Assembly: GCA_017506865.1 (NCBI GenBank)
Contig: JAFCMP010000113.1
Location: 186,001 to 250,000 of the forward strand
Length of the DNA: 64,000 bases
Direction of reading: 5' to 3'
Source: Tribonema minus
Taxonomy: Eukaryota; Sar; Xanthophyceae; Tribonematales; Tribonemataceae
The notes beneath the pieces were generated by a model that saw nothing but the letters and a program-made list of their open reading frames with translations, did no database searches and had not been told where the DNA came from. Positions within the stretch are counted from its first letter, which is position 1. Each line of letters opens with the position of its first letter. Position numbers and translations under genes: made by a program. Positions 5,792-64,000 of this stretch are shown in pieces.

Positions 5792-8700
5792 CAGAACAGC
5801 GTCACGGCCAGCATCAGCGGCAGCGTGAGCACTGCCATCAACAGCCGCAGCAGCATGAACATGTGGTCGTGGTAGCCGGAAAACAGGATCATCGCCACCA
5901 CCACACCGCTCCAGGCAAGCAGCAGCAGCGCGCCCTGCACGTGCAAGCGGCGTTGAACAGTGAGTGGCGACTGCGGTAGTTAAATGACTTCTTCATGGAG
6001 TTGAGCTGCTATGGTCGACCAACAAGATTGTGCTTGACTACAGCATGATTCTAGTATCAAGGCAGCCCCCCCCCCCCCAGTGTTGCATCCCAACCAGCCT
6101 CCCCCCCAGTGAGCTGTGAACTCAACCCCATCGTGAGTACACCGAGAGCCGAAGCAGCACAGCATACGTGCGACGAGCCTGGCTCCAAACAAGACCACAA
6201 CCCCCCACCGCCGCCACTGCCACCGCCAGCACCAGCGCCACCGCCGCCACCTCTAACACCATTCCCACCACCGCCACCAGCAGCAGCACCACCAACAGCA
6301 CAGCCAACACCTGCCGCCACCACCGCCGCCACCATCACCACCAGCAAAAACGAACACGAGCACCAGCGAACACTCGCCGCCGCCACCACCCGCCACCATC
6401 ACCACCACCAGCAAAAACAGACACCACCTCACCTCCAGATAGTCGCGGCGCATGACGCCGTGCGCCTTCACCGCGTCCTCGACGTCGTCCTCCGCGAGGT
6501 CCGCGCGCCGCAGCAGGCGCGCGCGCCGCAGCTCCACGGCGCGCGCGCGCACGTCGCCGCGCACGCCCGCTGCCTCCTCCAGCCCCGCCCAGAACTCCTG
6601 GCACGCGCGTGCGACACGAGCAGAGAAGATGCGTTTTGATACGAAGGCCTGTGCGTGTACTGCCCCTGACGTGATCACACTGTGTGGAAGGCGCGCCGTA
6701 GCAGAAGGCAAGGCCGCGAGAATTGCTGCTGAAGTTCAACTTCAACTCATAAGGCCGCGCACGCACGCCGCCTCCTCCAGCCCCGCCCAGAACTCCTGCT
6801 GCGCATACGATACGAAGAGGGGAATATGCACTTTCATACAACTGCGTGTGCAATGCACATGGTGCGAGTATTGCCCTGGCGCGCGTGAGCCGCGCGTATC
6901 GCACGTGGGGAAGGCGCTCGTGGTGGAAGGCGCATTGTGGCGGAAGGCCGCGATAACTGTTGCTGAAGTGAAACTTCAACTCATACAGCCGCGCACGCCC
7001 GCCGCCTCCTCCAGAGCCGCCCAAAACTCCTGTTGCGGATACGATACGAAGAGGAGAAGACGCGTTTTGATACGACAACACATTGATGTACTGTCGCCGG
7101 CGCGTTTGAGGCCTCATGTATCGCACATGTGGAAGGCGCTTGTGGCGCAAGGCAGCGAGATTTGCTGCTGAACTTCGACTTCAACTCATACAGCCGCGCC
7201 CGCCCGCCGCCTCCTCCAGTACCGCTCAGAACTCCTGGCGCGCGCATACGATGCGAAGAGACGAGGAGAGGATACGTTTGGATACAATTGCGTGTGCGTG
7301 TGCTGCCTCCTGGCGTGCGTGAAGCCGCGCGGATCACACCGTGTGGCAGGCGCGCCGTGGCGGAAGGCCGCAAGAATCGCTGCTGAAGTGCAGCTTCAAC
7401 TCATACAGCCGTGAATCGCACATGTACTACTGGAGTCCACTGGCACCGGTCACTTCACTTCTCGGAAGACGAAAGCCAGTAGGTCCTTCCTATATGTCCT
7501 GAAGCCACAGGCGCTCGGACACTAAGCGGTGGTATCAGAACTCTCATGCCGCGCTGGAACTGGACTTTCTTAGCCTGCGAAGCTACTAAAGTTGACCTTC
7601 CCAACCTGCTGACAGCCAGTTGCGCTATTGCCTGAGGCCATTGCACAACACACGCCTCTGGAGCTTTGCACATCCATCCTCAACTCAGCCAGCAGCTCGC
7701 AATTTATGCACAACCAATGTACTATCAGCACTGTTGCGCGCGCCGCACCTCTCCCTCGTTGTCATCCCCTTCGTCCCATTCTGCTTCCTCCTCCCGTCCC
7801 GCTGCGCCGGCCCGCTCCCCCTCCGTTTCGTCAGGCTCCAGGGCCCAATCCAACAAGTTCAAGTTCAACTCCTCGTCGTCCGCCGCTCCGCCGCCGACGC
7901 TGCTGCCGCCGAAAGCGCTGCCAGTCTGCTCCGGCACCTGGTGGGGTCGAGGGCTGTTGAAGGCGCTCCTGAGACGGATTGCGTGTCGTAGGCAGCAGGG
8001 TAGTTATTGGAGATGCCAGTGATGGCTGAAGCAGGTATGCCTGATCAGCCGCAACGGCAGGACGAGCGCGACCACTGCTACGAGCCGCACGCCGCACAGA
8101 AACAAAACAATGAGCCAGTGGGTCGGTTGCGCGTTGCAGCGCCGTCGCAGCGTTGATCGGGATGCACCTCGGTCTTTGCGTGTGGACGTGCTGCACACCG
8201 TACAGACTCACTGTACAGGACTCAGTATGGGCTCAACTGCACGCCAGCAACGATGGTGCCAGCCAACACACACACCAGGAGCGTGGCGCAGCGCCAACAG
8301 ACAAGCTACCGGGCACCAGACTGCGTGCTCCTACACGCGCCTGTAGACGACGACAGTGATGCCGCCGTCCGCGTGATGCCCGCCTGACGCCACGGCCGCG
8401 CGGCCCCCACAGCAGCGTGCCCCACTGCACACAGCTTCTGCGGTGAACGCGGGGTCAGCGCGAGATAAAAATCAAGGGACACAACACACACCCCTCACAT
8501 CCCATCGCCATGCACGTACTTGGGTGCGTCAGCAGCGGGCGACGCAGCGCCGAAGCCCGGCTCTGCGCGCGGCGACGCCGCCGCAGGGCCCGCGCGGCAC
8601 AGTTGGCGGATGGCCGGCGACGAGAGCTGCACGGTGGAGGGGCTGTAGCTGGCGCTGCCGACGCCGCTGCTGAGCCTGCTGCGCATGGAGGAGACGCCGC

Positions 8701-9306: not shown

Positions 9307-9400
9307 CATTGTCGCCCCACCGAGTGGGCGTGTAAGCAAAGACCTCATCAGGATTAGGCAAGAAGTCCGCGGGGGTCAGCTCCTCCAGCTTCTTCGCCAT
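9307..9400 (-). CDS. Probable first exon of a minus-strand gene
   Basis: ATG at 9400 opens a 31-codon frame, MAKKLEELTPADFLPNPDEV followed by FAYTPTRWGDN, ending at a GTACGA donor in phase 1. The residue mix is protein-like and the start faces the aspartate aminotransferase gene 160 bp away. I do not recognise the N-terminus. It may be the true first exon of the 5792-8857 membrane gene, with an unseen exon in between, or of another small gene. Confidence 0.45.
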
Positions 9401-12500: not shown

Positions 12501-15500
12501 GGGGGCTCAAGCGCCCCCTGCACGTGTGCCAGTGGGCAGGCAACGCAAAGTTGCGGGCGCGGGCAGGTTGAACTGGCGCCCTGTTCTTTGCGCTGGCCAC
12601 AAAGGCTTATGCTACAGTTCATGTACTTGAAAAGAGTGCAATACTGCGGCAGCGTGCTGGCGCGCATTACTCGTCACAACCCTCAGACACGCAGCTGGCA
12701 GGTGTTATAATCAAATCAGCTGGCAGTTATGATAGCAAAAAAACGCAGACACACCTCTTTCATCTCCCTCTCAACGATGATAGAACTAATAGAATTGATT
12801 GCAGTCACCAATATCAGAATGCGTGCTGGACAATGCTGCCCAGTTGGACTGCCGGCGGTGGGGTGGCGCGGAAGCAATGATGCCAAACAATTATCCCTGT
12901 CCGAAGGACGACGTGTGGATAAATACGCGTAACTGACCACTGAGCTCAAGCGCCGCCGCCGCCAACCAATGCAACTGGTGAATTCATGAGGCCAAGCTGC
13001 GCGTCAGCTGATCTGAAGTCTAACCCTAACGTACTCACAACTCTAGAAGAAGAAGCAAACGTATACCACAAAATAATCGAAGGCACTACATTATGCGCTG
13101 CGCGCCCGCTGCTCCTGAAGCTTTGTGAACGGAGAACATATGGTTGATGCAAAAAAGGTGATGGCGTTGCGTTCTGTGTGCTTGGTGTGTAGCTGGATTG
13201 TAAAACGAGCGCAGCCACCTACACAGCAAGCGATCACACCAGGAGTGCCTCCCCCCACACACATTTGCAAACTGCAACTTGCAACCGCAGACGCTATCGG
13301 GCACTGGCGCATGCCGCGTCGTCGGCGAGCTCCTGGGAAAGTTCCAGGGGGCCAAGGCGGGGGGCGGGCGCCCCCCCATCTACGTGCCCAACCCCACGTG
13401 GGGCAACCACATCCCCATCTTCAACAACGCCGGGATGGAGGTGAGAGGAGATGCAAGCATGCTAAGTACTGTTGAGGTTCATACAGATTCGTTGACCACG
13501 TGATATTTAGGTAATGGAGGTGAGAGGAAGTATATGTTGAGGTTTATACAGTTTCTTTGATATATACCACTTTAGTCTTGGGAGGAGCATACACAGGCAG
13601 GTGTGATGAAGCTGGGTTGTAGGAATTTGGGGGAGTCTCAGAGGCACTGCTCACGTGGGGCAACCACAGCCCCATCTTCAATAATGCCGGGATGGAGGTG
13701 AGAGGAGATGACAACGCATGTATGTCGCACGGTATATCTCTGTCTCGCATACTTCGAAGTACATGTGTTCACCAGGCCTATCATCACAATGGTTCATTTC
13801 TAGGGTTGGGGTTGTGTGCGTACTTTGACGCATTACAAAGTTTCTGCACTGACGTTGTTCAGCTTGCCGGTGCAGGTGCGCAAGTACCGCTATTATGACC
13901 CCAAGACCGTCGGCCTGGACTTTGAGGGTGAGTGTGTCTTTCAGAATATTCGACTTAAGAGTTGTTGTTGCTTGATTCTTCGCATCCGCGTCCAATGCTG
14001 CAGTGGCGATCGCTTCTCCATTATACCACTGCTCTGACCCCAACGTTGGTTTTCTGAGGGTGGTTGCTGCAGTGCCTGTTAATGTGTAATGCACAGTTGG
14101 CAGGGGCGTGCCCTTCAGGCAGCACAACTCTGCCGAGCCATGTACCTCAACAGTGACATCTCTTGCTTTTGAGCTCGTTGCTATAGCACGTTCTCTGCTA
14201 TGGCTTGGCATATTTGTAATACCGGATACCCCTAAACTCAGCGCCCCCCCCTCCCCCCCGAACACCCCCCCCCCCCGCCCCCTTTCTCGCCCCCCCGCAC
14301 CCCCCCACTACCCGTACCTCTTAAATGCCACAGGGCTGATCGCGGACGTCGAGCAGGCCCCCAAGGGCTCCGCATTCCTGCTGCACGCATGCGCGCATAA
14401 CCCCACCGGCGTGGACCCCACCCTCGACCAGTGGCGGCAGATCTCGCAGGCCATGAAGGTGAGCAAACCCCCTTCTATCGTGGTTAGCGGTGGTGAGGAC
14501 TGCCACAGGTGTGGTCGCAAGTGTTTGCGATGCCACGAAGACCAGTGAGGGCACACGGAGGTCCGTGCCTATCTCTATGTATGTGGGTACACACTAACGG
14601 GCGAGGATACCTGCGTCGACCAGTGGCGGCAGATCTCACAGGCCATCAAGGTGAGCAAACCCCTCCACAGTTGGGATGAGAGTAAACGAGTACTTTATGA
14701 GGACAGGGATGGCAGTTGTGTACTCGTCCTGTACTTGTGTACTCGTCCTGTAGGAGTACTCATGCTGTACGAGTACTGCTTCAGAAGTCATGTACGGGTA
14801 CGAGTACCTTTACGAGTGCTTACTGGTGACGAGCACTGCTGCAGGTGTGGTATCGAGCGGTTGCGGCGTTGCTAAGGTCGCACTGAGAGCAGACTGAGGT
14901 CCATATATACATGTGTGTATCCACATGCGTACCCAGTGGCGGCAGATCTGGCAGGCCATGAAGGTGAGAGAGCCCCCTACACGCTGTTGCAGTGATCAGG
15001 GCTGCTGCAGTTGCGATCTTTCACGCTGTTCAGACGCGAGGTTCATAGGTTTCTGCATGCATAATATATCGTTCTTTTGATTCGTTTCCATACAATACAT
15101 AATGCATACCTTCGGCGTGGACCACAGCCTCAACCAGCAATGGCAGGCCTTACGGGCGACAAGTGAAACCCCCTGGTACCCCCCCCCCTTATCGACTTAG
15201 GGTTAGACTAATCCTAAACCTAAACCAAAGCCACTGCCACACCACCACACGATCAGTTTTTTTTTGTGGGGAATGCTTCGCTACCTATCCTTGACTGTGC
15301 GCTGTCCTCCTATGTTCTGCTCGGACCCATGTGCGTTCGGATGGCATGTCTGCATGCTTCAACTCGGTCATGGTCTTCCGCATGCATACATGCGATGTTT
15401 TGAAGCATGCGATGTTTTGCATGCGTCACAGTATTACGAGCGTACACGAACTGTGTGCCCTGCTCTCGCTGTATACATTGCGGCTGCGAGTAAGCCTACT

Positions 15501-16844
15501 CCAAGCTTTTGCGCGTACATGAGCCACGTGTCCTCAACACTCTCTGCATTGCTGTGGCTCCGCATCGTCGCCAGGCGCAGGGGCACACGCCTCTTCCAAA
15601 CGCGTGCTTTTCGCGCATGCACAAACCGTGTGTACTCAACACTCTTTGCATTTCTGTGCGATGTCGTCAGGCGCAAGGGCACGTGGTCTTCTTCGACTGC
15701 GCGTACCAGGGCTTTGCCAGCGGCGACGCCGAGCACGACGCGGCAGCGCTCCGCATGTTTGTCGCTGACGGCCACAACGTAGCGCTGGGACAGGTGATCT
15801 TGAAGTTGTTGGTACTTCAACTGTGCTCGTTCGCTTAGGCGCCGCGTCGCATGATGCATTTTTTTACTTTACGGCAGCGCTGTGCATGTTTGTCGCCGAC
15901 GGCTGCAACGTGGCGCTGGGGCAGGTGACAGTTGAAGCTGTTGGTACTTCAACTGTGCTCGTTCGCTTAGGCGTCGCGGCGCATGATGCATTTTTTACTT
16001 TAGGCAGCGCTCCGCATGTTTGTCGCCGACGGCCACGACGTGGCGCTGCAGGTGATCTTGAAGTTGTGCTTGAAGTGTGCTTCTTTACGCATCGCATGAT
16101 ATATGCTTGCACGCTAGAGTGTTTTCTGCAAGAGTTGGGCGATTTGGTCCACACTTCAGGAGTACGTCAAAGATGATGCGCAGCGCTGTGCATCAGCCTT
16201 TGTCACTTCATGCACGGTAGTATTACAGCAGGCGGCGTGTGAGGCCTGCACGGGACCGTCGGGTGCGCTGAGCGTTGTGCCCTGCATGCGCCACTTCACT
16301 GACACCCCCCCCCCCCCCCCCCCAACGCCCCGCGCCGCGCGCAGTCCTTTGCCAAGAACTTTGGCCTGTACGGCGAGCGCATCGGCGCGCTGAGCGTTGT
16401 GTGCGCGGACCTCGAGGAGGCGGCGCGCGTGGAGTCGCAGTTGAAGTTGGTGATCCGCCCCATGTACAGCAACCCGCCCGTGCACGGCGCGCGGCTGGTG
16501 TCTGAGATACTGAGCGACGCTGCGCTGCGCGCAGAGTGGGCGGGCGAGTGCCGCGGCATGGCGGAGCGCATCACGGCGATGCGCGTGGCGCTGAGGTGAG
16601 ACAAGAGTTCAATTAATTGTTGTGAACTTCAACAGTTTGAACTTCAGGGCGCGCTACGCAGGCGCGGCGCCGCGTCACCGCGCGCGCGCGCCGCGCCGGA
16701 CGCCATCGATGGACATGCGGCCCGAGTAGTGATGCAAGCGTCACGCTTCAGGCAGCCTTTGTGAACTTCAATGATGCTCACACTCCAGGCAGGAGGACTC
16801 CACCTACCTTTGTGGTGCATGCAATGAGCACCGTGTGTGTGCGT

Positions 16845-16881
<37 letters not shown>

Positions 16882-18135
16882 GGGGATTCTGCGGCGGCGG
16901 CGCGAGCAGCGGGCGTGCGAGCGGCGACAGTCGATAGCAGCAGCGCTCGGCAGCAGCAAATAGCATGTAGACATGTGTGCGCGCGCGTGTGTATGTATGT
17001 GTGTGAATGACGAACTGCGCGTGCTGCGCGCTCCCGCCCGCTCGCCCGCGCGTGCAGGGAGTCGCTGGAGAAGCGCGGCAGCGGCCCTCGACAGCAGCAG
17101 CGCTCGCCAGCTGCGAGCGGCCTATAAACCTGCCCATGCCTGTGTGTGTATGTGCCTGTGCGTGTGTGAAGGCATATGAACCTCTTCCGTGTTTGTGCGT
17201 GCGTGCGTGAATGACAAACCGCTCCCGCCCGCCCACTCACCCGCGCGCAGGGAGTCGCTGGAGAAGCGCGGCAGCGCGCGCGACTGGTCCCACATCACCG
17301 ACCAGATCGGCATGTTCTGCTACACGGGGCTCACGACGGAGGAGGTGCTCAAGATCCGCGCCGACAGGTGCGTGCGCGCAACCCCTAGTCCTAACCCTAC
17401 GCCCCATGTGCGTCCTAGCCCTGAGTGTACAACCCCTAGCCCTAGCCCTAGGCCCAATGCGCTTCCCAGCCCTGAGTGTACTGCCAATTTCAACGTCAAG
17501 AAAAAAGCAGCTCTGTGAGGTGCCACAACTGCCGAGCACTGATCGCCCGCTCGTCCAGCGCTGGGCACATCGATTCCAAGCACGCGTGCGGGAGGGAGAC
17601 GCACGCTTGCGTACACGTGCGGGCCGCTGCGACGGAACAAGTAACCGCTTCAAAACAACAAAAAAAACAAGTCGCATCAAATCCGCCTCAGGTCTGCTGC
17701 TCTTTGGCACGTCTACTTCACGAGCAACATGCGCTAATCTGTGGTTATCGTGGGCAGGGGTACACGATGTATGACAACGATTACTCTGAAGTTTATGATG
17801 ACTTACAGATGATTTGTGTACATGATACCATATTGGTACATCTTCTCCATGGTGTTAGACTCGTCTACATATATGGTTACAGGGCAGGCTACAATGTATC
17901 ATGAGCATGTGCTTCCCGAAGTGTATGATGATGCGATGCACGTGATGTGTTACATGCTACATGCTGGCAGGTCAATCTTCATCTTCAACTACCTGTAAAT
18001 CGTTCTTGGCGCCCGCTGCTCGCTGCTGCGCGCAGGCACGTCTACTTCACGGGCGACGGGCGCATCTCCATGGCGGGCCTCACGTCCACCAACGTCGACT
18101 ACGTCGGCGAGAGCATCTTCCAGGTGGCGGGCTGA
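9561..18135 (+). CDS. Aspartate aminotransferase, mitochondrial type
   Basis: PLP enzyme interconverting aspartate plus 2-oxoglutarate and oxaloacetate plus glutamate. Eleven exons join in phase to 434 codons plus stop, the usual length for the mitochondrial form: 9561-9760, 10250-10347, 11635-11690, 12256-12288 (33-base microexon, [11 protein letters not shown]), 13291-13440, 13876-13927, 14334-14458, 15671-15793, 16345-16595, 17251-17367, 18036-18135. Visible motifs: [19 protein letters not shown], the phosphate-binding SGTGA loop, [21 protein letters not shown], the Schiff-base lysine (about residue 283) in [14 protein letters not shown], and the C-terminal [10 protein letters not shown] arginine. 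The N-terminal 30 residues are rich in Arg, Ala and Ser without acids, as in a mitochondrial presequence. Introns hold three snoRNA-like copies and several repeated splice junctions. Family assignment is certain; targeting is inferred. Confidence 0.95.
10674..10762 (+). ncRNA. Probable C/D-box snoRNA, copy 1 (intron 2 of the aminotransferase)
   Basis: A terminal stem GGTGCTGATGC (10674-10684) pairs with GCATCGCACC (10753-10762) with one bulge. Just inside are a C box ATGATGC (10686-10692, 6 of 7 to RTGATGA) and a D box CTGA (10749-10752). The internal antisense element TTATCCCTGT (10700-10709) sits directly before a D'-like CCGA and is complementary to ACAGGGATAA, a highly conserved large-subunit rRNA sequence. 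By the D'+5 rule the middle G of GGG would be 2'-O-methylated, the job of yeast snR38-type guides as I recall them. The host is transcribed in the same direction. Confidence 0.7.
11065..11156 (+). ncRNA. Probable C/D-box snoRNA, copy 2 (intron 2 of the aminotransferase)
   Basis: Same-length core as copy 1: C box ATGATGC (11077-11083), guide TTATCCCTGT (11091-11100), D'-like CCGA (11101-11104), C'-like TGGATGA and D box CTGA (11140-11143). The outer stem has changed sequence but can still pair (GCTGT-GC with GC-ACAGC). Unpaired spacer bases differ from copy 1 while boxes and guide are identical. Confidence 0.7.
12862..12957 (+). ncRNA. Probable C/D-box snoRNA, copy 3 (intron 4 of the aminotransferase)
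   Basis: C box ATGATGC (12877-12883), guide TTATCCCTGT (12891-12900), D'-like CCGA, D box CTGA (12940-12943). The outer stem GGCGC (12865-12869) pairs with GCGCC (12950-12954) and an inner GC pairs with GC next to the boxes, with different bases from copies 1 and 2. The paired changes support a folded RNA rather than a dead repeat. Confidence 0.7.
13651..13700 (+). repeat. Copy of aminotransferase exon 5 donor junction
   Basis: The end of exon 5 (CACGTGGGGCAACCAC, then CCCATCTTCAA, GCCGGGATGGAG and GTGAGAGGAGATG) is repeated about 250 bp downstream inside intron 5, with a few substitutions. The donor GTGAGA is kept. A weaker fragment (atggaggtgagagga) lies between them near 13514. Confidence 0.85.
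14600..14965 (+). repeat. Two copies of aminotransferase exon 7 donor junction
   Basis: The exon 7 end, CGACCAGTGGCGGCAGATCT then CGCAGGCCATGAAG|GTGAGC, recurs at about 14618-14660 (CGACCAGTGGCGGCAGATCT, ATCAAG|GTGAGC) and 14935-14970 (CAGTGGCGGCAGATCT, ATGAAG|GTGAGA). Both copies keep a usable donor. Confidence 0.85.
14687..14835. repeat. Minisatellite of gtactcgt-type units
   Basis: Irregular short repeats built from tgtactcgtcctgtac and acgagtac, some as inverted pairs, within intron 7 of the aminotransferase. Confidence 0.7.
15845..16060 (+). repeat. Two copies of aminotransferase exon 8 donor junction
   Basis: The exon 8 end (GGCAGCGCTCCGCATGTTTG, TCGCTGACGGCCAC, GTAGCGCTGGGACAG|GTGATCTTGAAG) recurs at about 15872-15935 and 16003-16062, with the intron side (ttgaagttgttggtacttcaactgtgctcgttcgcttaggcg) also repeated between the first two. 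Period is about 127 bp. Confidence 0.9.
16306..16322. repeat. Poly-C run before exon 9 acceptor
   Basis: Uninterrupted C run forming the polypyrimidine tract of the exon 9 acceptor (16345). Confidence 0.8.
16838..16880. repeat. (GT)n microsatellite
   Basis: gt/tgtg repeat with a few interruptions in intron 9 of the aminotransferase. Confidence 0.95.
17040..17085 (+). repeat. Copy of aminotransferase exon 10 acceptor junction
   Basis: GCAGGGAGTCGCTGGAGAAG then CGCGGCAGCG at about 17055-17085 duplicates the exon 10 start (17247-17276), including the CAG acceptor, about 192 bp upstream. After the shared part the copy lacks the coding continuation. Confidence 0.85.
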
Positions 18136-18232
18136 GGAACAGGGCAGCAGCGCTCCACACCCTCTGACCGCAGCACCTCTGCGCAGTCTGCTGGCTGGCG
18201 ACGCTCCGCGCGCGCCGAGTCTCGGTGGCAGC

Positions 18233-23248: not shown

Positions 23249-24089
23249 GGGGTGAGGTATGAGCAATCGGGATTCGGGTCGACGCCCGACCCAGTTCTCG
23301 GCCCCCGACCTGACAAACCTCAAACAGTCTCAAACCTCCAAAACCTTGAAATATCAGCTCCCTTGCCGCGCAGCTACGCTATCATTGGTGTAGAGTCCTA
23401 GCAGCTGCTCATCATGAAGTCTCCCGTGCAAAATGCTTTACGACTGTCTGACACAGCACGGCTGGGTCCAAAGGGCCGTAGCTGTGGGCTGATGAGCTGC
23501 TGGTGAAGGCAACTCTGTCTAGTCTTTGATCATCAGCAAAGGGTGCCAGGCACAACCGAGGTGCACTGTTCCTAGCGCAACCTCGAGGCGGGGAGCGGGA
23601 GCAGTGCAGGCGAAGGTGGCACGAATTGTGAATGGTGCCGCCAACTCTCAGAGATTGGTAGCTGACCACGCTGCAGGGGTTATGGTGATGAAGCACTGCA
23701 GCGCTCCCGTAGTGCCTGTATCGCCATCGCTTACTGTTTGTCGTCGCGCTTGCGAGTGAGACCCCGGGAATGCGTCAAGGAAAGTTCCACAGATTATTCC
23801 AGCCCTAACCCTACTCACCCTAACCCTAACCCTAAACCCTAACAAAAGTAGCCCTAGCCCTAAGCTCACACGCCTGTGGGTTGGCGACTGACCCTACCTT
23901 CACGGCACTTGCTCTGAGCCATGGAGGTTATCACTGGCAGCAAGAAGTTACATAGTGTCACCGGACATCACCGAATGTAGTCGATTTTGGCCGGCATCGG
24001 TTTGACAAAACGGTTTGGTTTGAGTCGACCGACCGACCCACTTTTGAAATTTATTTCGACCCGAATCCCGATTGCTCATACCTCACCCC
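23249..24089. mobile_element. Non-autonomous DNA transposon-like element with 34-bp TIRs
   Basis: A 34-bp sequence starting GGGGTGAGGTATGAGCAATC at 23249-23282 is repeated as an exact reverse complement at 24056-24089. Outside the repeats both ends carry TGG (23246-23248 and 24090-24092), a possible 3-bp target duplication. The 841-bp element encodes no recognisable transposase, so it would need a helper. Internally there is a telomere-like CCCTAA tract at 23803-23865. Class is uncertain; 3-bp duplications are typical of PIF/Harbinger and CACTA elements, but neither family's diagnostic ends are seen. Confidence 0.7.
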
Positions 24090-32023: not shown

Positions 32024-32155
32024 TCACACAACCATATCGTCTGGACCGGAGTCATAGCCGCCGCCCGCGCCCTCCCCAAACGGGTCCCACACGGGGTCGT
32101 ACGCTACGCCGCGCAGCATGAGCCCCTGCGGCGGTGCGCACAGGCCGCCGCCGCT

Positions 32156-32186
<31 letters not shown>

Positions 32187-51268: not shown

Positions 51269-54200
51269 ACCGCCGCCGCCGCTGCCGCACGCCCGCTCGA
51301 GCGATGACACGGGCCGCGTGAGCACGGGCTGCTGCGGAGCGCTGGGACTGCGTTTGCGTTGCGCACGCTCCGCCGCGCCCTCCGCTGCCGCACTGAACGC
51401 CACGGGAGCAGGCTTGGGCCCGCTGATGTGCAGGGCCGCTGCGGCGTCGGCGCTGTCGGCGGCAGCTGCGGCGGCGGCGGCGCACTGCGCGGGAGCCACG
51501 CCGTTCCTGGCGGCAGCATGCGCGGGCGGGCTGTCCTCGCGCTCAGGCGATGCGTCCGCAAGCTGTCCCTCCGCGATGGCCCGCAGGCCTGCGGCGTGGA
51601 TTGCGACATGGGCTTTGGTGACTGGAGCCGTGGTAGTGGCCGTCTTGAAGGCGCCGACAAGCAACACAAGACTTGCCGCAGTGCAACATACATGATACTC
51701 CAGAGAAGACTGCGGGGGCCCCTGGTACACACTAGTGCCAGCAACCTCACTCGCGATTGGCACTGCTGGCAAACTCACTAACGATCGCATGCAGAAAAGC
51801 CTCGTCATTGCGCATTGCGCGCACTAATGAGCACTGCCACACCCGACACCTCACGACAGTTTGGAACCACGGATGCTGGGCCAGACCACTGGAACACACA
51901 ACAAGTCAGTGCCGCTGCTCACCGATGCTCTGCCCGGCGTTGAGCACTGGGGTGTCCTGCGTTGAGCAGCGCTGCGATGGCGTGACATCGTGCTGGCCGC
52001 CCGAAGAGGGGGTGCACACGGCGGCGCCGGTGCCCTGTAGCAGAAGGACAGCGGCGGAGTGTCAGGCATCATGACCGTGACATGCAGTGTTGTTGACATG
52101 CGGTCGGCAGTCGGGGCCATGAAGCATGCTAGGACTCTCTGAAACCAGCGTACAAAGCGCGAGCTACCCCCATTGCGGTCTAACCCTTACCCCTTGACTG
52201 ACTCGGGATGACACCATGCGCGAGTAGTATGAGTGCTGTGCCCTTCAGGATGGAAAGATGGGTCGAAGATGGTAACCCCCATGGCAAAGTCAAGATGAAA
52301 TGTGTGTTTGGCCCGCACATGCCACTCACATGAAGGAGTTCAAGAGTACACTGCATTCTTGCAAGCGCTGGTGGCGTACCGTCTACTTCTGCATCAGGTA
52401 ATGGGTATTGAAGCACTGTGCGAGTCACTTCTCAAACCTCAAGTACCGCCATACCTGAGCCTCAGGCGTCTGAGTAGAGGCGGATGCAGTCACTTTTGGC
52501 GACCGCGCTGCTGCGAGAGCGTCCGCGGCAGCAGCAGCCTGCTCCTGAGCCGCCGCCTCAGCTGCCTCCAGCTGCTGCTGCAGCGCTGCAACCTGATGAG
52601 CGCTGCCCTGAGCCTCCGCAGTTGCCTCCGCCACCTTGAAGTTGGCAAGGGGTACAGGGGGCAATAGGTTGGGAAAGAAGGCAGCGATGCTTTGCGAACA
52701 AGGTGAAGGGTGATGTACTCGTAGCTCATCTTTTGTGTATTGGCCCCTAATTCAACCAAGTACATGCAGTATGTGCTGCTCACAGCGGATCCAGGAAGAC
52801 TGAAAAACTTCAACAAAACATGCTTTCTGTAAGCACATTCAGAACTTCCTGCATATCCACTTATGCTCCACTCATCATAGTATGCCTGGCCATGCGCTAG
52901 TAGCAAAACATCAGCTACTTCAACTGCTCAGACACACGCGCGGCACGAAGTGCAAGTGTAACAAGTGCGCGTCTCCCGTGTGTACACAACTTCAACACCT
53001 TCCCGGGCTGTGTTGGGAGCTGACATGCGCAATGCAACACGCAGAGCCGTGCGTGAGCAGGCCGCCGTGTTGCTTCAACCCACTTCTGATGTGCCATCAT
53101 AGCCACATAAACTTCAACTCCTTCTGCTCGACCTTGAGCATGAGACGCACCTGATTCCTGAGGGTCTCGCACCCCTGGCGCAGCCGGTCCAGCGCCTTGG
53201 CTTGCGCATCGATGACCTGCGCCGGGAGAGTCAGCGCTCAGCGCTTTAGAGACTCGTTCCATCATGCACAATCAGCGGCAACGCTTTCAAAGACAGGGTC
53301 CACATCATTAAGTGTAGAAAGGGGTGAAACATCAGAGAGAGGCTTGGCGTTGCATTGGCAGGGCTTGCCTTACGCACTGTCACTAGAGCGGGTGCTGCCA
53401 TGGGTGCGCCAAGGGGACTGCTGCATGCAAGCACGCAATGTCTGAAGCAAGGTATCACCATGGTCAACTTCAAGTTGAGGTCAGGCAGTTGGGCAGTTGG
53501 AATCTGTGCGCCCGCTGGTCCTCACTTCAATGAAACGTCCATGCAATGTGCTTCAAAGTTGTCTCCAAACACATTTGCCTGTGCATAAGCTGAGTACCCC
53601 TTGCTGCAACACAGGGGTCGACTGCTGCAAGCACATATGTAGAGCGGCGCACAGGGCCCCTCGTCATACCCTGCAAATGCAGACATACCCATATCCATAG
53701 TGTACATACCCCACCCTGCAAGTGCATACACACCACCCATATTCATAAGGTACATGCCCTACCCTGCATGTGCTTTTATACATACCCATATGCATACTAT
53801 ACATACCTACATGCTGAAATGCACTACATGCTGAAATGCACTACATACTGTACACACCATACTCAAATCATATCCATAGTATACATACCCTACCCGGCAA
53901 GTGCTAATACACACCCATATGCATACTGTACACACCGAGCTCACACACGCATGCCCACCTCCTGGCTCTTGGTCTGCGCCTCCGCGCCTGCAGTGATCAG
54001 CGCCTGCGCCGCCGCCAGCCGCTCTCTCAGCTGCGCGATCAGCGCGTCCTCCTCATTCGCCTTGGCGTCCCTGCGCCGCAGCTGCGCGTGCGCGGCGTCC
54101 AGCTCCGCCGTCAGCCTGCTGCACCTGAGGAGGCGCACCGTCGTGGGACATTGCACGAGATTATCGCCACATCTTCGTGGCCAGTGCCGTGGTTAATGGT

Positions 54201-57147
54201 TCGTTCCAATGATTACGCGTTTTGTCAGCGCTCCAAGGCGACGTTAAGGTTATGAGCTGCGTGACGTCGCGGAGCTGCGCGCGCGCGGCGTCCAGCTCCG
54301 CTGTCAACCTGCTGCACCTGTGGCGCAAGGGAGAAGTTCCACAAGATCAACGCCACGTCTCTGTGGCCAGTACCATTGGTATCATTGTTGATGATTGATT
54401 CCAGCGGGTACACATTGTGTCGGCGCTCCGAGGCGCTGGTAAATGAGCCGCATGCCGTAACGATTGTCGAGCCATATCTGTAGGAAGCACCTGTGTGATG
54501 CTCGATCACGTGATGGCCGCCTCTGCAAGCTTACACTCTCAGAATTTCTGAGTCTCACAGGCTTGCGCCTCTGCATGCATCAAGCTGCGCCAGCAATCAG
54601 ATCCCTCACCAACGTCGCCTGCCACTCGATCCGTCACAATGCTGCCTCAGCATAAACTGCAGCTGCCGCAGTGTATAGTCCTCACCTCAGCATTCAATAC
54701 AGTTTCAGACATCATGTGTTGCTCATCGTTGCAACTGACCTGGTCGCCAGCTGCGAGCGCTCCTCGCCGAGCGCGCGCCCCTCGCTGAGCGCTGCCTCGA
54801 GCCGCGCCCCCAGCTCCCGCGCCGCCGCCGCCTGCCGCTTGGCCAGCGCCGCGCCCTGCCGCGCAGCCTCCTCCGACACCGCAAGCCCCGCGCACGCCTC
54901 GGCGCACCTCTGCAGCAGCAGCGATCAGCGCGCAGGGGGGAGGGGGGGTGGTGCAGCTGCTCAGCGGGTCAGTTGAAGTCGCGGACCCCGCGCACGCCTC
55001 GGCGCACCTCTGCAGCAGCAGCAGCAATCAGCGTGCAGGGAGGTGAGAGGAGGGAGGAGTGGTGCAGCTGCTCAGCGGTTCAGTTGGCGCTGCAAGCCCC
55101 GTCCCGCACGCGCCTCGGCGCGCCTCCGTAGCAGCGATCGGTGCGAGAAAGCGCGGCTGCTGAAGCATGTAGAGCGAGGCTCCAGAGCGCGCCTCGGCGC
55201 GCCTTTGCAACGGCAATGAGCGCGCAGGGGGCGAGGCGTGGTGCACGTGCTCAGCGCCCGGCCTGCCCCGAGCACGCGGCGCGTGCCCTGAGCACGGCTG
55301 CGCAGCAGCGATCAGCGCAAGAGGGCGAGGCTGGAAGCATGCAGCCATCACCAAGCATAATTGCAATTATGCCCCATCCATTCTGCGCCAGCATGGCGCA
55401 TGGCACGGGGATGCGGCTGAGCAGCTGCAACGGCCTGTGCACACGCGCCGCTTGCGGCCGCCATCACTATCAGTGCCCGATGACTACACACACACCGACA
55501 CGAGCCTCCAAAACAGACAGAGTCCCGTGGAGTACTTACTTGACCATGTCGAGTGCGAGGCATGCCCAACGAGCGGCGCGCGAGTACACGAACGCGACGC
55601 GCTTCGACGGCGCACGCCGCGCCTGCGTGATGCGGCTCTGCATAAATCATGTTGAGTGCGAGGCGAGTTCAACAGGGAATCGCGCGAGCAGACGAGCGCT
55701 AAACGCGTTAACGGCGCACACGTAGTACCTGCGTGATGCGACTATGCGTGGCCTTGAGGTCGTCCTGCGCGCGCTTCAGGTTGGCGACCAGCCCGTGCAG
55801 GGTCTCGCGGCTTGCGGTGAGCCCCTCGATGTGCCGCTGCATGCTCGCGACCTGCACCGCGCGTTGCGACACCGGGGACGCGAGTGCGTGCGCGCGCGGC
55901 CACGGTGTAACGGCTGCTTTAGCAATGGGGGAGTCACGCGCTACTGTTGCCGATGATCAAATGACGCTCCAAGTGCCGTTAAGCGTACCGCACGCAGCAG
56001 GCTGGCTGTCAGCGGCGGAGGTGGGGTAAGAGGTGGGGAAGGGCAGGTGATTCATAAGGTGAAGCCACGTTCACTGAATTACTGAGCGTCGGATGACGGA
56101 TGCGCGCTCGTCTCTGAACTAACAGTTGATGCGACAACTGTGCACCAAAGTCTGCACCCTTGTCGATGTGGGGATGCAACGCTCTTCAAAGCCAAGCGCA
56201 TGGAATCGTAACTCACACAACTGACCCTCAGCTGTCAGAGACGGCTGTTGCAACATCAACTGCGTGATCCTGCCATCACTTTCCTGACACCTGTGTACTG
56301 GATGTGCTCAATTACCTTTACGATCAGGGTGTTGAGGCTGAAGAAAACTTCAGATTGTGAGAGTGTGAGCAAGGTATTCCATTACATCATCAACACCAGC
56401 GGTCGTGATGGACTTTCATGGTGAGACCTGCTCCGTTCCTGCTTTGCATGATCTTGCAGTGCGAGCTCCTCGTAACAACCTCCATCCGCGCCCTCTGGCT
56501 TGAGAGCAATCGGACGAGCAGAGCGTCAAAACTTTTGCCAATGCATTACTGCCCTCCTTCGTCGCAACCGCGCCACCAGTGCTGCTGCTGCTGCAGCGCG
56601 CAAGAAGGCGCCCTGTCACGTCAGTTCGCCCACCCACCTGTTGCCCTAGCTCCCTCTCCCTGATGGCAGCCTCGTGTCCCTCCTTGAGCTTCTGCTGAAG
56701 CTGCGCCACCTCCGACTGCGCAGCCTCCCTGTCGTTGATGGCGGCACGCAGCGCCCTGGCCGTCTCGCGCTGCTTGCCATTGGCAGCAGAGACCGCCTGC
56801 CGCAGTGCCTCGTTCTCCACGGCCAGATCTTCGAGCTGGCCGCCGTCGGAGGACTCCTGCAGCTGCTTCTTCTGGGGCGTGCCCTCGTCGATCTGGTGAG
56901 GTCGCGAGGAGCTTCCGTCTGCCAGTAAGTTCTTGATGAGCATCAGCAGTTGATCGCCCTGTCGTCAGGAGAACGGGACGTGGCAATTATGGGATCCACG
57001 TGCGTGTGACGACAAATTAGATTTTGAAGCAAGTACGAGATCACGCGACGCCCTGCTGCTCAGAGTTTAAAAGGCTTTGCTTCAAACCTTGCCCAGAGTA
57101 TTGGGATGGAAGGCACTCGCCTGCATCACGGTCTCTATGTGCGACAT
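50074..57147 (-). CDS. Coiled-coil protein with a C-terminal PHD-like zinc finger
   Basis: Nine exons agree in phase from ATG to stop, 724 residues: 57147-57121 (MSHIETVMQ, GC donor), 56958-56638, 55851-55729, 54909-54740, 54124-53959, 53216-53151, 52634-52455, 51643-50748, 50299-50074. Exons 2-7 encode heptad-like helices (NEALRQAVSAANGKQRETAR, SRETLHGLVANLKRAQDDLK, RLTAELDAAHAQL, VAALQQQLEAAEAAAQEQA). Exon 8 is low complexity with Gly/Ser runs and a basic patch VKRRKLSLKPEG that could be nuclear targeting. The C-terminus has CLVCG, LPCRECG, RCHSACL, then PGHKC and stop: the first six ligands of a PHD finger (C-x2-C, C-x2-C, H-x2-C) with the last pair missing or atypical. A chromatin or scaffold role is only a guess. 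Missing exons remain possible. Confidence 0.65.
51100..51300. repeat. (CCG)n triplet tract in exon 8 of the coiled-coil/PHD gene
   Basis: Runs of ccg, gct and cca triplets encode poly-Gly with Ser and Asp on the gene's strand. Confidence 0.9.
54245..54325 (-). repeat. Copy of the coiled-coil gene exon 5 acceptor junction
   Basis: gagctgcgcgcgcgcggcgtccagctccgctgtcaacctgctgcacctg (about 54270-54318) duplicates the exon start at 54124 (cagctgcgcgtgcgcggcgtccagctccgccgtcagcctgctgcacctg). The following 40-50 bases (caacgccacgtctctgtggccagta) are also shared with intron sequence after the exon. Confidence 0.85.
54888..55220 (-). repeat. Array of coiled-coil gene exon 4 acceptor junctions
   Basis: cgcacgcctcggcgcacctctgcagcagcagcgatcagcg at 54892-54930 (the true exon start) recurs at about 54988-55033, 55098-55145 and 55180-55220 in decreasing similarity, each followed by gcgcaggg and gaggxgtggtgcagctgctcagcg. 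Unit length about 95-100 bp. Confidence 0.85.
55540..55728. repeat. Diverged direct repeat of about 100 bp
   Basis: catgtcgagtgcgaggc...gcgcgcgagtacacgaacgcgacgcg (55546-55600) resembles catgttgagtgcgaggc...cgcgcgagcagacgagcgctaaacgcg (55648-55707), in the intron after exon 3 of the coiled-coil/PHD gene. Confidence 0.6.
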
Positions 57148-58072: not shown

Positions 58073-61000
58073 ATGAGTAGACCTGTGCCGCCCTCCAGCC
58101 CGCCGCCAACACAGAAGCGGGGAGACGACGATGAAGCAGCCCCATCCCTCACTCCCGTCAAGAGACCTCCCGGTGCTCCCCCCGGCTCTCCCGATGCCGC
58201 CCCGGTCATCAAAGCACCTCCCAAAGCCCCCCCACCAGCCAAGCCGCCAGCACCAGCGTCACCGCCCTCACCGAGTGGGCCAGCACCCCCGTCTGCACGC
58301 CAATCCCCCAGAGCAGTACCAGGGGGGGGTGCAGCAGCTCCACCCCCTCGGGCACCAGCAGGGCCCCCGCCCTCTTCCCCGCCCAAGCCTGCTTCACCGG
58401 GCGCCAAGCCACCGCCTCCATCAGCACCGCCGCCATCCTCTCCGCCCAGGCCGTCGCCGCCGCAGTCGCCGCCGCCGGGCGCGCCGCCGTCTACCGGCGC
58501 AGCAGCAGCAGCTGCTGCGTCGCCGCGAGCGCCGTCGCCGCCGCCATCGCGGCCGCCTGCGCCTGCGACGCCTGCACCGCAACAAGCTGCGCCGCCAACA
58601 CCAGCAGCAGCAGCAGCAGCGAAAGAGGAGGGCGTGGAGCTGCCTAAGACGGAGCAGGAGGGAGCGCGGCAGCTGCAGCAGGCGGCGCCGCGCGCGCACC
58701 CGGCACTGGGCAAGCCCGCGCCGCCGCCGCGGCCGCCGCAAGGCGTGCCGGAGGATAAGCCCCCGCCGCAGGTCAGGCGCAGAGAGCGGTTACGCCGATG
58801 TGGAAACTTCAAGTACTAGGTGCAGATATAGACTTGGCATTTGGTGTACACAATGAACTAGGGTCAGGTCAACTGCAGGACATCAAGGCGTAGCGGCACG
58901 TGCAAGTGCCATCGACACAAGCGGTCTGTGAGAAAAGTGTCAATGGTCACGCGGATGCACTCAGATTCGGACGTCGCGACAGACCAGCAGCATCGCCAAA
59001 TTGTCACCAGTTGTTACCTTTGGTCGGCTGCTGTCTGCGTCAAGCTGACGCTTTTTACACAGCAGTCAAGCAGATGCAGCAGCAATGTGGCAAGCCCTAC
59101 CAGCCCCGCTGCCACCGCAAGCACACGCTCTGACACCAGAGATCCCACGCCACATATGTGCACGGCGGCGCACTGCCGCACCTCACACCCTGCGCAAGTG
59201 CGCCTCTCCAGGACGCCGACAAAATCAACTTCTAACTGTTGCAGTTGATGTTGGTGGCTTCCTCCGCGCAGGCGCCGCCGCGCAGGCCCAGCGTTAAGGG
59301 GCTCTACGGCTCATCTCCCGATGCGTCGCCCCCCGGCTCGCCGCCGCCGGCAGCAGCAGCAGCAGGCGCAGACCCTGCAGCAGCAGCGGCGCTCGGAAAG
59401 GATGCCGCTGCGGATCCGGACGCGCGGGCGCTGGTCAGAGTGGGGGATCAGGGGGGGGCAACCCCCGGGGGGCAGGTCAGCGCGAGGGGGGTGCAGGGGG
59501 CGCCCAAGGGGCGGCGTCCGCCGCCCGGGCCCCCGCCCGGCACGGTGACGCCGCGCGCGTTACGCGGGTGAGTCCCGTCCCGTTACGAAAGTTGTAACTG
59601 TACAAATGCTGTAACTGTGAGCGCCACCTGGGCCCCCGCCCGGCGCGGTAACGCCGCGCGCGTTACGCGGGTGAGTCGCTTAGCCCGTAACGAAAGATGT
59701 AACTGTTACAAATGTTGTAACTGCGAGCACCGGCCGGGCCCCCGCCCGGCACGGTGACGCCACGCGCATTACGTGGGTGAGTCGCTGCCCTTTACGAAAG
59801 TTGTAACTGTTACAAATGGTGTAACTGCGAGCGCCGCCCGGGCCCCCGCCCGGATGGTGATGCCGCGCGCGTTACGCGGGTGAGTCGCTGCCCATCACGA
59901 AAGTTGTAACTGTACAAATGGAAACGATTCAAAACATCGAAGAGTTCTAGGTGACAAGGGATGGTTAGCCGCAAGTGCACCCACCAATAACCGTGGTCAA
60001 ATGTTGTATCTGTGAGAGCCCCCTCGAACTGACATTCAGCAGCAGGCAGGTTCAGATGTCAGCGCGGTCGTTGTACGAAACATGTGCTGATGCTGGTTGC
60101 ACAGCGTGGCTCGGGCTCTTGCTGGTGCAGAGTGCAAACAAGCTGTTTGCCCAGTGAGTAGAGGTGGCCATGGAAGAAGCTGATGGCAGGATGGCGGGCT
60201 GCTAGTGCAGCACTGGCAGCAATTGCTGCCGCGGTGCAATGGCAGAGCTTCAGTGGTTTGCTGGGGAAGTCCATGTGTACGATGTACATCTGGGGGAGGG
60301 GGGGCGCGCTGCGATTGGCAACAGGCCTGCTCAGCGACCACGCTATGTTGGTGCCATGAGCATCGGTGGCACTGTGTTAAAGAGAGACCTTGTGCCTAAT
60401 TGACATTGACGAGCTCTGCTGCGTATACACCACAAGCAGTAGATAGGGCAGCAGTTACATCCACACCAGGGGGCGCCGCCCCTTCCGTGGCGCGGCTGCG
60501 GGGCCAAGGTTGCACCCAAGCGCTTCGCATCAAGCGCCTCGCGCGCTGTGCGCCTGCCTGTTCATCTCTCAAATGCCATCATCGCAATTGAATGACTCCT
60601 GACGGCACGCCCATGACAGCACACCCATTCGCCCCCGCACGCACTGCCATCTGCGCAGCGCTGCGCCTGGAGAGCGGCCAAAACCCCCGGAGGCCCCCCC
60701 AGAACCGGACCCTGCGCCCACCGCCACCGCCCAGGAACCTTTCCCAGAGGACGGTGCCGCGCCCGTGCAAGAAACGGCGCTGGTGGAGGTGGCGGCGGCG
60801 GAATCGGCACCGCCATCGACTGCAGCGGCGGCGCTGGCGGACGGCGCAGCAGCGGCGGTGGCGGCGGCGGCCGTTACGCTGCGCAACGGGCGGCTGAGCG
60901 TGCGCTGCGTGAGCGCACGCGGCGCGCGCGCGCGCGCGGGGCCGGCGGCGTCCGCGGCCGTGAAGCTCACGCTGGGCGCCACCAAGGGCGCTCAGGTATG

Positions 61001-64000
61001 TATGTATTGTTGTGTGTGCGCACTTCTGCTGCGTGCGGACTGGCAGCGGCGAGGCGCGCGCAGCGTGTGCCGGTGGTGGTGGTGGTGGCGGTGGTGCGCT
61101 GCGGGAGCAGCAGTTGTTGCAGCCGGTGTAGGGACCAGTATGTGTTTGGCAGACGGCGCGGCTGCGGCGGCAGCGGTGGCGCGCCCTGATGGGCATGTTG
61201 CTGCTGCCGTCTTACAAAGATATTTTGCGCAATATGGCTGTGCAGGCATCGACAGCGATGACCTGCGCCGTGAAAAAGACAGACGTGCATGCAGCGCACT
61301 GCGTTCTTACTCAGGCAGAGAGACTATGCAGCGTTGCTCATACACCGCCCGCTGCGCCCCGCACCACGACTCTCTTGACCGACTGCACAGCGGAGCAATC
61401 TGCGCGCAGCAATTTCTTTACCGACTCTCTCCTAACATATGCACTTGCGCTTTCATGATGCATCTCTGTCACAGTGCGCTGCGCCCTCACAGTGTGCGTT
61501 GCGCTCTGGCCTGCTCCTCCTGCCCGCAGGTGCAGCGCAGCACCGTGCTGCCGTGCCGCGGCGACGCCCCCTCCTTGGCAGCGCTCGGTCGCGTGCGGCA
61601 GTTCCGTTGGGCCAGAAGGACTTGAAATTGCAACCGTTCACTTTTGCCCCCTTCGCACCCCCCTTCCCCCCCCCCCCCCGGATGCTCGCAGGTGCAGCGC
61701 AGCGCCGCGCAGCCGTGCCCCGGCGACGCCCCCGACTACCGCCTTGAAGTTCTCAAGTTCAATCTGGTGACGCCCCAGAGCCTCGCCGCCGCCGACGGAG
61801 CGCTGCCGCTGGCCGTTGAGCTCGTCTCCGAGGGGGCGTGGGGGGGGGAGGAGGTGCTGGGGGGGTCAGCCTCGACGCGCGGCGCTTCATGAGCGCTGAT
61901 GCCGCGGGGCACTGGCACCCCGTGGAGCTGCCGCTGGACGCCGGCGCAGGTGAGGCAGGGGGTGGGGGGGGGTGCCTGGCTCTCAGTTGGTGGGTGCCAG
62001 AGATCGGGTTTCATTGGGAAGAGGGGGGGGCTGAGGGGGGGGGGGGGGGGGGCACTTGTGCGGAGCACTGATGGCGACGCCCGCGTCGCCTCGCGCCCAG
62101 GACGAAATGCCCGGGGGCGGTGAGGTCTGCCATGGGGAAGAGGGGGGGACGGGGAAGGTGCGGGGGGGGGTGGGGCGAAGGCAGCGTCAATATACTTTGC
62201 CTCATGAGCTGCGATGCTGTGCCAGCGGACGCCGGTGCAGATGAGCCGTGCAGCGACTGTCCATCGACATGCCCGCCGCTGTCAGGGCATGCAAACCTCC
62301 AGAATCGGGGTTGGGGGGTGCAAATGGGGGGAGAGGGGGGGGGGGGGGGTAATGCTGCGTGGCACCGCCACGCAGTGGATCTACGTGTCACAGTGGCGGC
62401 AAGGTACGTGCAGGGCGCAAACACACGTGCCGTGCACAGACACACGCGCGATGCCGTGGTGCACGCAGGCGCCACAGCGGCAACGGCGTGCGCTTGCATC
62501 AGCGCCTGTCTTCTCGGGTGAGCTGTTGCTGTGGCAGTCACGGGGGGGCGGTGCGCGCTGCGAACTACGGCCCCCTGGCGCGGCGCGGCCCAGAATCCCC
62601 CAGGGTATACCCTAGGTAGCTTTTCACGCTAGAAGTAGGGTTAGGGCCAGGGTTAGGGGGGCCTCGTACACTGGGTCGTGCAACCTGCGCCGCGGCGTGC
62701 GGGGTGGATGCCGGGGCGTGAACACGGCGCGCACGAGCGCTGCCGCGAGTCACAAGCAACGACAGCACCCGCACGCGCAGTGGGCTCGGGATCACTGGCG
62801 TGCCCCCTGCTGATGCAGCGTGTGCAGCGCTGGCGGGTGCGGCGGTGCGCGGCGCTCGGCGCTCGAGCGCTGCCGCGACGGCCCTGCTGACGCCGTGCAT
62901 CACACAGGCGCCGCGCGCGCACGCAACTGCACTGACACCACGCGCCCGCGTGCTCTCAACCCCTGTCGGCTCGTGCTTTGTCCGCTGCTGCCGTGCGTCC
63001 AACGCCCTGCCTCTCCCGTCGTTGTTCGCCTGGAGTTGCAGTTGGAGCCACTGGTCAGCATGGCCGTCGAGACAGTGCCTCTCACTCTTGCTCGCTCGCG
63101 CTGCTCTGCTGCTGCGTCTCACGCCCACTCGCCCTCGCATCCGTCGGCCCGCGCGCCTCCGCTGCCGCCGCACGTCGCCGCCCCCCGCGCACGCGCCGCC
63201 GCCGCCGCCGCCGCCTGCCGCGCAGCCTCACGCGACCGCTTTCCTATGCGTTCAATCCATACCTACTCGCTGCTCTCACCGCCGTGTTTTCTTGCATGCC
63301 GCGCCCGTCACGGCGTCTCTCGCAGGCGCCGTCGTCAAGATGGCGCACGAACGCACGCGCGAGAGCGCACGACTCATGCCTACTCGCGCCGCACACCTAT
63401 TCGCTGCTCTCACCGCCGTGCTCCCTCCCATGCGGCGTCGCTCGCAGGCGCCGTCGTCAAGATGGGCGTGCGGCTGGAGCTCATGTTCGAGGCGGCGCTG
63501 GTGGGCATGACCGTCGTCGCGGTGCACGAGGGGCGCGCGCTGCGCGTGGGCGAGCGCAGCAGCGCGGGCGTCGCGCTGCACCCCTACGTGTCATTGGAAA
63601 TGGGGCAGGGGTACACGAAGCGCAGCGCCACGGTATGTTCATGCACATGTATACACACATGAAGAATATATACAGACGCATGTTCCTCAGATGGGTTTAG
63701 GGCTAGGGTTTCAGCGAGCGCGGCAGCGCGGGCGTCGCGCTGCACCCCTATGTGGCGCTCGAGATGGCGCAGGGGTACACGAAGCGCAGCACCACGGTGC
63801 GTACATACATTCAGATAGACGATACACCTCGGTAGTGTTTTACAATGTAGGTGCAGGGTAGGTGTTGGGGGAGCGCAGCAGCGCGGGCGTCGCGCTGCGC
63901 CCCTATGTGGCGCTCGAGATGGGGCAGGGGTGCGAAGCGCAGCGCAGCGCAGCGCAGTGCAGCGCTCAGAAAGATGGCGCCACCGCGCTCAACAATCTGC
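58073..64000 (+). CDS. Proline-rich protein with C2 domain(s), continues past right edge
   Basis: Exons: 58073-58771 (233 codons, about one third Pro, start MSRPVPPSSPPPTQKRGDDD), 59272-59567, 60659-60995, 61692-61949, 63448-63632; the first three join in phase. Exon 3 starts a C2-like fold: VTLRNGRLSVRCVSARGARA and AAVKLTLGATKGAQ. Exon 4 continues with DYRLEVLKFNLVTP, and ends in HWHPVELPLDAGA after a frame break in the G runs at 61835-61866. Exon 5 opens another C2-like block: VRLELMFEAALVGMTVVAVH and HPYVSLEMGQGYTKRSAT. C2 domains bind membranes, often with calcium, but the calcium-binding aspartates are not evident here. The long Pro-rich region may be a disordered linker. The remainder lies beyond the window. 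At least one additional short exon near 62550-62595 (PLARRGPESPR) is possible. Confidence 0.6.
59515..59890 (+). repeat. Four-copy array of a C2-gene exon donor junction, about 104 bp units
   Basis: GGGCCCCCGCCCGGCACGGT, GACGCCGCGCGCGTTACGCG and GGTGAGTC (exon end at 59567) recur at about 59629-59676, 59735-59782 and 59840-59886, with the intron part acgaaagttgtaactgttacaaatg also repeated. Confidence 0.95.
61520..61575 (+). repeat. Copy of C2-gene exon 4 acceptor junction
   Basis: CTGCCCGCAG|GTGCAGCGCA, GCACCGTGCTGCCGTGCCGC, GGCGACGCCCCC (61521-61572) copies the exon start at 61692 (GTGCAGCGCAGCGCCGCGCA, GCCGTGCCCCGGCGACGCCC). The copy is followed by a different frame. Confidence 0.85.
62630..62665. 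repeat. Short TTAGGG-type intronic tract
   Basis: gtagggttagggccagggttaggggggcc; a similar tract lies at 63694-63712. Confidence 0.7.
63310..63960 (+). repeat. Copies of both edges of C2-gene exon 63448-63632
   Basis: Upstream, TCTCGCAGGCGCCGTCGTCA, AGATGG at 63318-63345 copies the exon start. Downstream, GCAGCGCGGGCGTCGCGCTG, CACCCCTATGTGGCGCTCGA, GATGGCGCAGGGGTACACGA copies its end at 63722-63800 and, with a short GCGCA-repeat ending, at 63876-63960. Confidence 0.9.

Follow-up and report, generated by a model that had tools for sequence, protein, structure and literature searches.

Tandem exon duplication copies exon sequence in tandem within a gene, and the arrays described here, from the genome of an alga, share this property with it. 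It differs in that the entire exon is copied, with both splice sites; this is rarely so in the alga, where only 1 of the 85 arrays detected in 264 kb encloses a whole solid exon (solid denoting, here and below, a coding log-odds of at least 10 in the HMM gene finder used).

For potato, PMC4974935 describes one gene in which tandem duplication across an intron-exon boundary produced a new intron. As in the alga, the unit there crosses a boundary, taking in the 3′ portion of an intron along with the 5′ portion of the exon after it. The potato case, however, concerns a single gene and a new intron, whereas in the alga roughly a fifth to a quarter of the tested junctions are affected, on donor and acceptor sides, and the copies lie in an existing intron. 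Boundary-crossing tandem duplication is thus already known, but no account of junction-spanning arrays recurring genome-wide was found in the limited collection of literature searched.

The AGGT tandem-duplication model (Rogers 1989) and internal gene duplication (Gao & Lynch 2009), as covered in part by PMC4974935 and PMC2891723, resemble the arrays in that a short internal tandem duplication occurs near splice-like sites. In the Rogers model it is exonic sequence that is duplicated, the GT of one copy being used with the AG of the other; the units in the alga, in contrast, hold intron, so that a copied edge is followed by intron. In the aligned copies the copied edge adjoins intron, and only 2 of the 85 arrays reach a solid exon at each of their ends, which is not the pattern of a Rogers-type exonic duplication. 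Introners are alike in that repeated sequence is found at exon-intron borders, genome-wide and in protists, but they are dispersed related introns (PMC9860276, PMC7789003), whereas each algal array stays at its own locus and repeats 15-106 nt of exon. The introns of Amoebophrya, for example, are described in the latter source as dispersed elements with direct repeats of 3-5 nt.

Junction-spanning arrays in the window and the genome sample

The window (the whole stretch of 64,000 nucleotides that was analysed, G000:C113:186001-250000) belongs to a genome of 158 Mb in 554 contigs. Together with 20 stretches of 10 kb, each from another contig and at positions chosen by hand, it makes up a sample of 264 kb, or 0.17% of the genome. 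No nuclear RuBisCO small subunit was found in an exon-by-exon search of the genome. There are 92 matches to the chlorophyll-binding protein family, one of which has fucoxanthin chlorophyll a/c proteins as its nearest PDB entries. These two results together suggest a red-type plastid.

Exon edges were taken from our own two-strand HMM gene finder and are predictions made without RNA. Eight stretches served as seeds, six of them within Pfam matches (two of those below the cut-off) and two picked by eye, and training used the whole sample, i.e. the window and the 20 stretches from other contigs. The consensus learned was approximately AG/GTGMGY for 317 donors and GCAG/G for 312 acceptors, the slash marking the splice site. 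Arrays were detected by self-alignment, with periods of 40-700, a score of at least 55 bits and removal of low complexity. The filtered set comprises 24 arrays from the window and 85 from the 264 kb as a whole. Nineteen of those in the window hold the edge of a solid predicted exon; the other five, at 3351, 10673, 21500, 38268 and 53690, do not. The 19 are given below, followed for contrast by the most similar tandem duplication of the window.

6556..7421, minus strand: acceptor-side array upstream of exon 6433-6597; exonic part 42 nt; periods from about 198
13395..13720, plus strand: donor-side copy, aspartate aminotransferase-like exon 13291-13440; exonic part 46 nt, 93% identical, distance 257; Pfam Aminotran_1_2
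14405..14978, plus strand: donor-side copies, exon 14334-14458; distances 192 and 505
15741..16067, plus strand: donor-side array, exon 15671-15793; period 131
17033..17276, plus strand: acceptor-side copy, exon 17251-17367; self-alignment
30198..30497, minus strand: acceptor-side copy, exon 30079-30303; self-alignment
32866..33304, minus strand: donor-side copies, pseudouridine synthase exon 33262-33357; Pfam PseudoU_synth_1
33338..33605, minus strand: acceptor-side array, same pseudouridine synthase exon 33262-33357; self-alignment
39888..40498, plus strand: acceptor-side copies, exon 40438-40588; self-alignment
42078..42326, plus strand: acceptor-side copies, exon 42301-42435; self-alignment
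43739..44225, plus strand: donor-side array, DENN-domain exon 43625-43807; three copies at distances 126, 250 and 374; Pfam DENN
44295..44491, plus strand: acceptor-side copy, DENN exon 44458-44577; distance 155
44527..44803, plus strand: donor-side copy, DENN exon 44458-44577; distance 218
54077..54458, minus strand: acceptor-side copy, exon 53959-54118; period 193
54892..55256, minus strand: acceptor-side copy, exon 54740-54909; self-alignment
59519..59921, plus strand: donor-side array, exon 59272-59567; period about 103, four units
61521..61733, plus strand: acceptor-side copy, exon 61692-61853; distance 162
63258..63465, plus strand: acceptor-side copy, exon 63448-63610; self-alignment
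63547..63945, plus strand: donor-side array, exon 63448-63610; periods 164 and 319
21500..21765, no strand assigned: tandem duplication off predicted junctions; 133 bp, 100% identical, microhomology not seen by eye

Across the 264 kb, a solid exon edge lies inside 58 of the 85 arrays at one end (in 2 of the 58, at both ends), and the edges involved comprise 30 donors, 28 acceptors and 2 CDS ends. The remaining arrays are 25 without a solid exon edge, 1 enclosing an entire exon and 1 inside an exon. This last, at L008 8577-8716, is the sole array wholly inside a solid exon, and its period of 81 is a multiple of three. It is apparent that junction arrays are not local to the window; they occur in many stretches of the genome, with donor and acceptor sides equally used. 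The existence of such arrays, put forward in the original prediction from the window alone, is borne out by these counts. Thirteen of the 15 intervals offered there as examples overlap filtered arrays; 45700-46640 was recovered at looser settings only, and 20385-20530 at neither. Two of the exons named, 43625-43807 and 44458-44577, were returned with identical coordinates by the independent gene finder, and two more with shifted edges (45929-46168 as 45844-46168, and 63448-63632 as 63448-63610). Some exons do carry arrays on both sides, as had been claimed (10 of the 50 array-bearing exons). The arrays of the window lie in six predicted gene models, where at least seven genes had been named. 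The unit size had been given as 90-220 bp; the smallest periods of the 85 arrays have a median of 142 and a 5-95% range of 79-389, and units are mostly of 70-400 bp.

Twenty-two predicted gene models in the 264 kb bear arrays. Seventeen of them were submitted to Pfam, at least partly, and 13 of these scored over the curated cut-off, the families including aminotransferase, DENN, pseudouridine synthase, ABC-F, PP2C, S8e, condensin and dynein. The predicted pseudouridine synthase exon sequence also contains a long GCC-type tract, 32144-32280, which is glycine-coding on the minus strand.

Copies of exon edges were also sought directly, by comparing up to 60 nt of exon plus 8 nt of intron with the neighbouring intron of the same junction, other introns serving as the control. 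At a score of 34, a copy was found in the adjacent intron at 74 of 348 junctions (control 0.2), and these junctions had 131 copies in all; at a score of 30 the number was 82 of 348 (control 0.4). Roughly a fifth to a quarter of the tested splice junctions therefore bear decayed copies of their own edge. The best pair is less than 95% identical in 82 of the 85 arrays, so that assembly duplication is an unlikely source of most of them. Very similar arrays are few in the 264 kb; the three most similar are those at window position 21500 (100%), L016 5200 (99%) and L009 1-530 (97%). None of the three is at a solid junction, and duplication as such is therefore not junction-specific. Arrays were found at 2 of 29 CDS start or stop edges and at 58 of 355 splice edges; the former are too few to separate splice edges from other borders of constraint.

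Placement relative to exon edges

Observed placement was compared with three nulls, in all of which gene models were used with each array collapsed to one unit. Uniform placement would put 16.9% of units across one edge and 72.6% clear of any edge, as against the 58 of 85 arrays that span an edge. Under the genic null, among units touching one edge or none, 43% would be expected to touch an edge, and 45 of 53 did so (p 3e-10; the two exon cases left out). In the local null, each unit was placed within the array's own gap between solid exons, up to 1500 nt. Here 20.9 of 53 arrays were expected to span an edge and 47 were observed, a number as high being reached in 0 of 20,000 simulations; 30 further arrays have no such gap. 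The original prediction had named repeat boundaries no closer to splice sites than chance as the result that would count against it, and the association stood.

As slower decay of exons could prolong detection, the array search was repeated with all solid exons masked. An edge was then spanned by 24 of 33 genic arrays, against 32% expected (p 2e-6), and by 28 of all 54 arrays, against 14%. The near end of the unit lay 8-100 nt into the exon in 24 of the 54, and 8-100 nt short of it in 3. Four other settings gave the same asymmetry (24-34 into the exon and 3-5 short), as did a threshold of 45 bits with arrays having enough intron to stop short (31 and 5, respectively, among 68 arrays). When copies were sought via the junction-near intron only, 19 of 35 had a clear exon edge, 9 were borderline and 7 had none.

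The exonic part of the units, of 15-106 nt, is shorter than under the null (median 49.5 vs 67; KS p 2e-5) and is uncorrelated with the period (rho 0.17, p 0.21); random unit placement would presumably give such a correlation. Base composition differs as well: the G+C content of the intron edge is.51 at junctions with arrays vs.59 at those without, and the G+C step is.17 vs.13. The step is a possible contributor to the junction bias, but it leaves the scarcity of units stopping short unexplained.

Placement is thus not independent of gene structure, even with selection on exons allowed for, given 47 of 53 arrays against 20.9 in the local comparison and 31 against 5 at the exon edge. With edges that are gene-finder predictions, these results suggest that duplications are preferentially made, or preferentially kept, where exon meets intron.

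Candidate origins of the arrays

The reading preferred here, at a probability of roughly 0.4, is that tandem duplications of 70-400 bp recur, are started at or biased to junctions, are spliced out and decay. A high background of short tandem duplication would be combined with a preference for junction-spanning units, in which 15-106 nt of exon edge is joined, through the splice site, to the intron beside it. Splicing would stay at the outermost original site, leaving the extra copies inside the intron, where they would do little harm and would decay as neutral sequence; some arrays grow to three or more copies.

The main rival, and the closest, is that duplications arise everywhere and that arrays last where a constrained exon edge acts as an unchanging master copy. 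Copies so anchored would stay similar, would keep recombining and expanding, and could not collapse without damage to the exon, while unanchored intronic arrays would vanish. This must be regarded as a serious possibility, if one short of probable. Apart from the two exon cases, 28 of 34 multi-pair arrays lie at junctions, vs 30 of 49 single-pair arrays, an enrichment that persistence or expansion would account for no less than a bias at birth. Single-pair arrays show a less pronounced step at the exon edge (13 into the exon vs 4 short, among 44), and this, like the off-junction position of the three most similar arrays, favours persistence. The excess survives the masking of exons, however; the step is present in arrays at least 85% identical (15 vs 1, among 26); and in age junction arrays do not exceed the rest (p 0.77 and 0.59), all of which argue against persistence.

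As to how a duplication biased to junctions might be made, a break or template switch at the junction could be followed by overlapping synthesis from both ends and then by end joining. The unit would in that case necessarily span the junction, and its exon and intron tracts would be independent in length. Such independence matches that observed between exonic part and period. By eye, clear microhomology is lacking in the two most similar duplications (133 and 325 bp), both off-junction, as would be the outcome of end joining. It is conceivable, though rather unlikely, that a DNA lesion is directed to splice junctions as such, both intron ends being cut or acting as template-switch sites, and that the spanning duplications slowly enlarge introns genome-wide by adding exon-edge copies. 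The source might be, for instance, a splice-site-recognising transposase of intron-generating elements, or stalled splicing-transcription complexes.

If the bias at birth is real, exon-intron borders would be duplication hot spots, linking splice sites to DNA damage, and would be a source of intron growth, of decoy splice sites and perhaps of new introns; the origin of new intronic sequence and new introns becomes a testable question in this alga. If persistence alone is responsible, constrained edges would still serve as anchors for repeats. Gene finders will call exon-edge copies as false microexons, as our own did.

Chance with survivorship, in which random duplications are purged from exons and seem junction-linked as introns are short, is improbable. 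It does predict some excess, as the genic and local expectations given above make clear, but the observed counts are well above both, the exonic part is shorter than it should be, and units stopping just short of the junction are scarce.

State and decay of the copies

Copies selected as decoys or alternative exon edges that tune splicing were at first favoured, since copies found via the exon edge were far more similar to one another at that edge than on the intron side (.81 vs.65; 69 pairs in 30 arrays). In a search from the intron side, 19 of 35 copies had a clear edge, and in these the identities were.887 for exon and.892 for intron. Whole units were then compared at 30 junctions with arrays aligned over at least 85% of the period (several of them sharing an array), and the exon part was.918 and the intron part.851 identical. 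With one neutral lineage in the exon part and two in the intron part, the neutral expectation for the former is the square root of.851, or.922, from which the observed value does not differ (p 0.77). The intron-side and whole-unit searches suggest that the decoy signal was a product of ascertainment and neutral decay, and the interpretation was dropped.

Other features of the copies agree with this. Differences at parent codon positions 1, 2 and 3 amount to.082,.078 and.146, where a neutral copy of a coding parent predicts 1:1:2. Copies score lower than their parents as donor sites (p 5e-6; 63 copies) and slightly lower as acceptor sites (p 0.03; 50 copies). Retention of splice dinucleotides, which had been noted in the original prediction, was confirmed in mappable copies (GT or GC in 57 of 63 donors, AG in 39 of 51 acceptors), and together with the high identity of the exon-like parts it might be taken to favour selection. 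The frequency of gaps is lower in exon parts than in intron parts by a factor of 8.5, as against one near 2 under neutrality; this is the one result that leans toward decoys, and it may be due to low complexity of the introns or to the need to recognise the edge. Divergence thus proceeds at the neutral rate for substitutions, with gap rates fitting less well, and by their substitution pattern the copies look like neutral, non-coding debris. Of the two explanations offered originally, a junction-targeted process or selection for decoys, the junction association holds beyond the uniform, genic and local nulls, but decoys, given neutral divergence and weaker splice sites, are very improbable.

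The extra copies are probably spliced out, with the original outermost site still used. Pfam scores with and without the copies are mixed, and no claim on protein use is drawn from them: the aminotransferase scored 229.8 bits without copies and 222.3 when two of the three were retained, whereas scores were higher with copies for ABC-F (187.7 vs 177.3), PP2C (76.5 vs 68.0) and dynein (70.5 vs 61.2).

Transposable introns (Introners) or other dispersed repeats are the least credible source of the copies: Introners were detected in 175 of 3,325 eukaryotic genomes and are 6.5 times likelier in aquatic species (PMC9860276), and one dispersed element of about 135 bp occurs in the sample, but in an all-against-all comparison of the 264 kb only 453 of 34,319 array bp matched another sampled locus, only 1 of 85 arrays was more than half covered, and genome searches with three array regions matched elsewhere through short stretches only, with no second full copy found. 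By these alignments, array DNA is locus-specific and not a dispersed repeat.

Two versions of one region, L025 (C144) and L026 (C223), are collinear over 10 kb and 97.9% identical in aligned columns, with an equal-score kinase match on C278; they are either haplotigs or a segmental duplication. Between them, 214 of 9,964 aligned columns differ, and none of the eight gaps, two of which are at the ends and the longest of which is 34 nt, is by eye a clear tandem duplication.

Several other repeats were noted. The dispersed element, possibly a small transposon, lies at 24171-24305 of the window; its identity to L022 3085-3218 is 99%, and stretches of L006 and L011 resemble it. A 45-bp stretch, L016 6044-6088, matches dozens of places in the genome, with local repeats in several. 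Stretch L009 contains a group I intron at 7182-7523 (Rfam RF00028) and, elsewhere, a repeat array of about 236 bp. In the window, AACTTCAACT and its complement (e.g. at 6735, 33393, 33487, 33571 and 46243) are about 18 times as frequent as a 4th-order model predicts, and words related to it reach their highest density in introns, on both strands. Short telomere-like runs of CCCTAA/TTAGGG are scattered in the noncoding DNA of the window and of L005-L024 (e.g. 23803-23843 and 42569-42611); CCCTAACCC occurs 1.4 times per 10 kb in the window and 19 times in L006, in all cases outside predicted exons.
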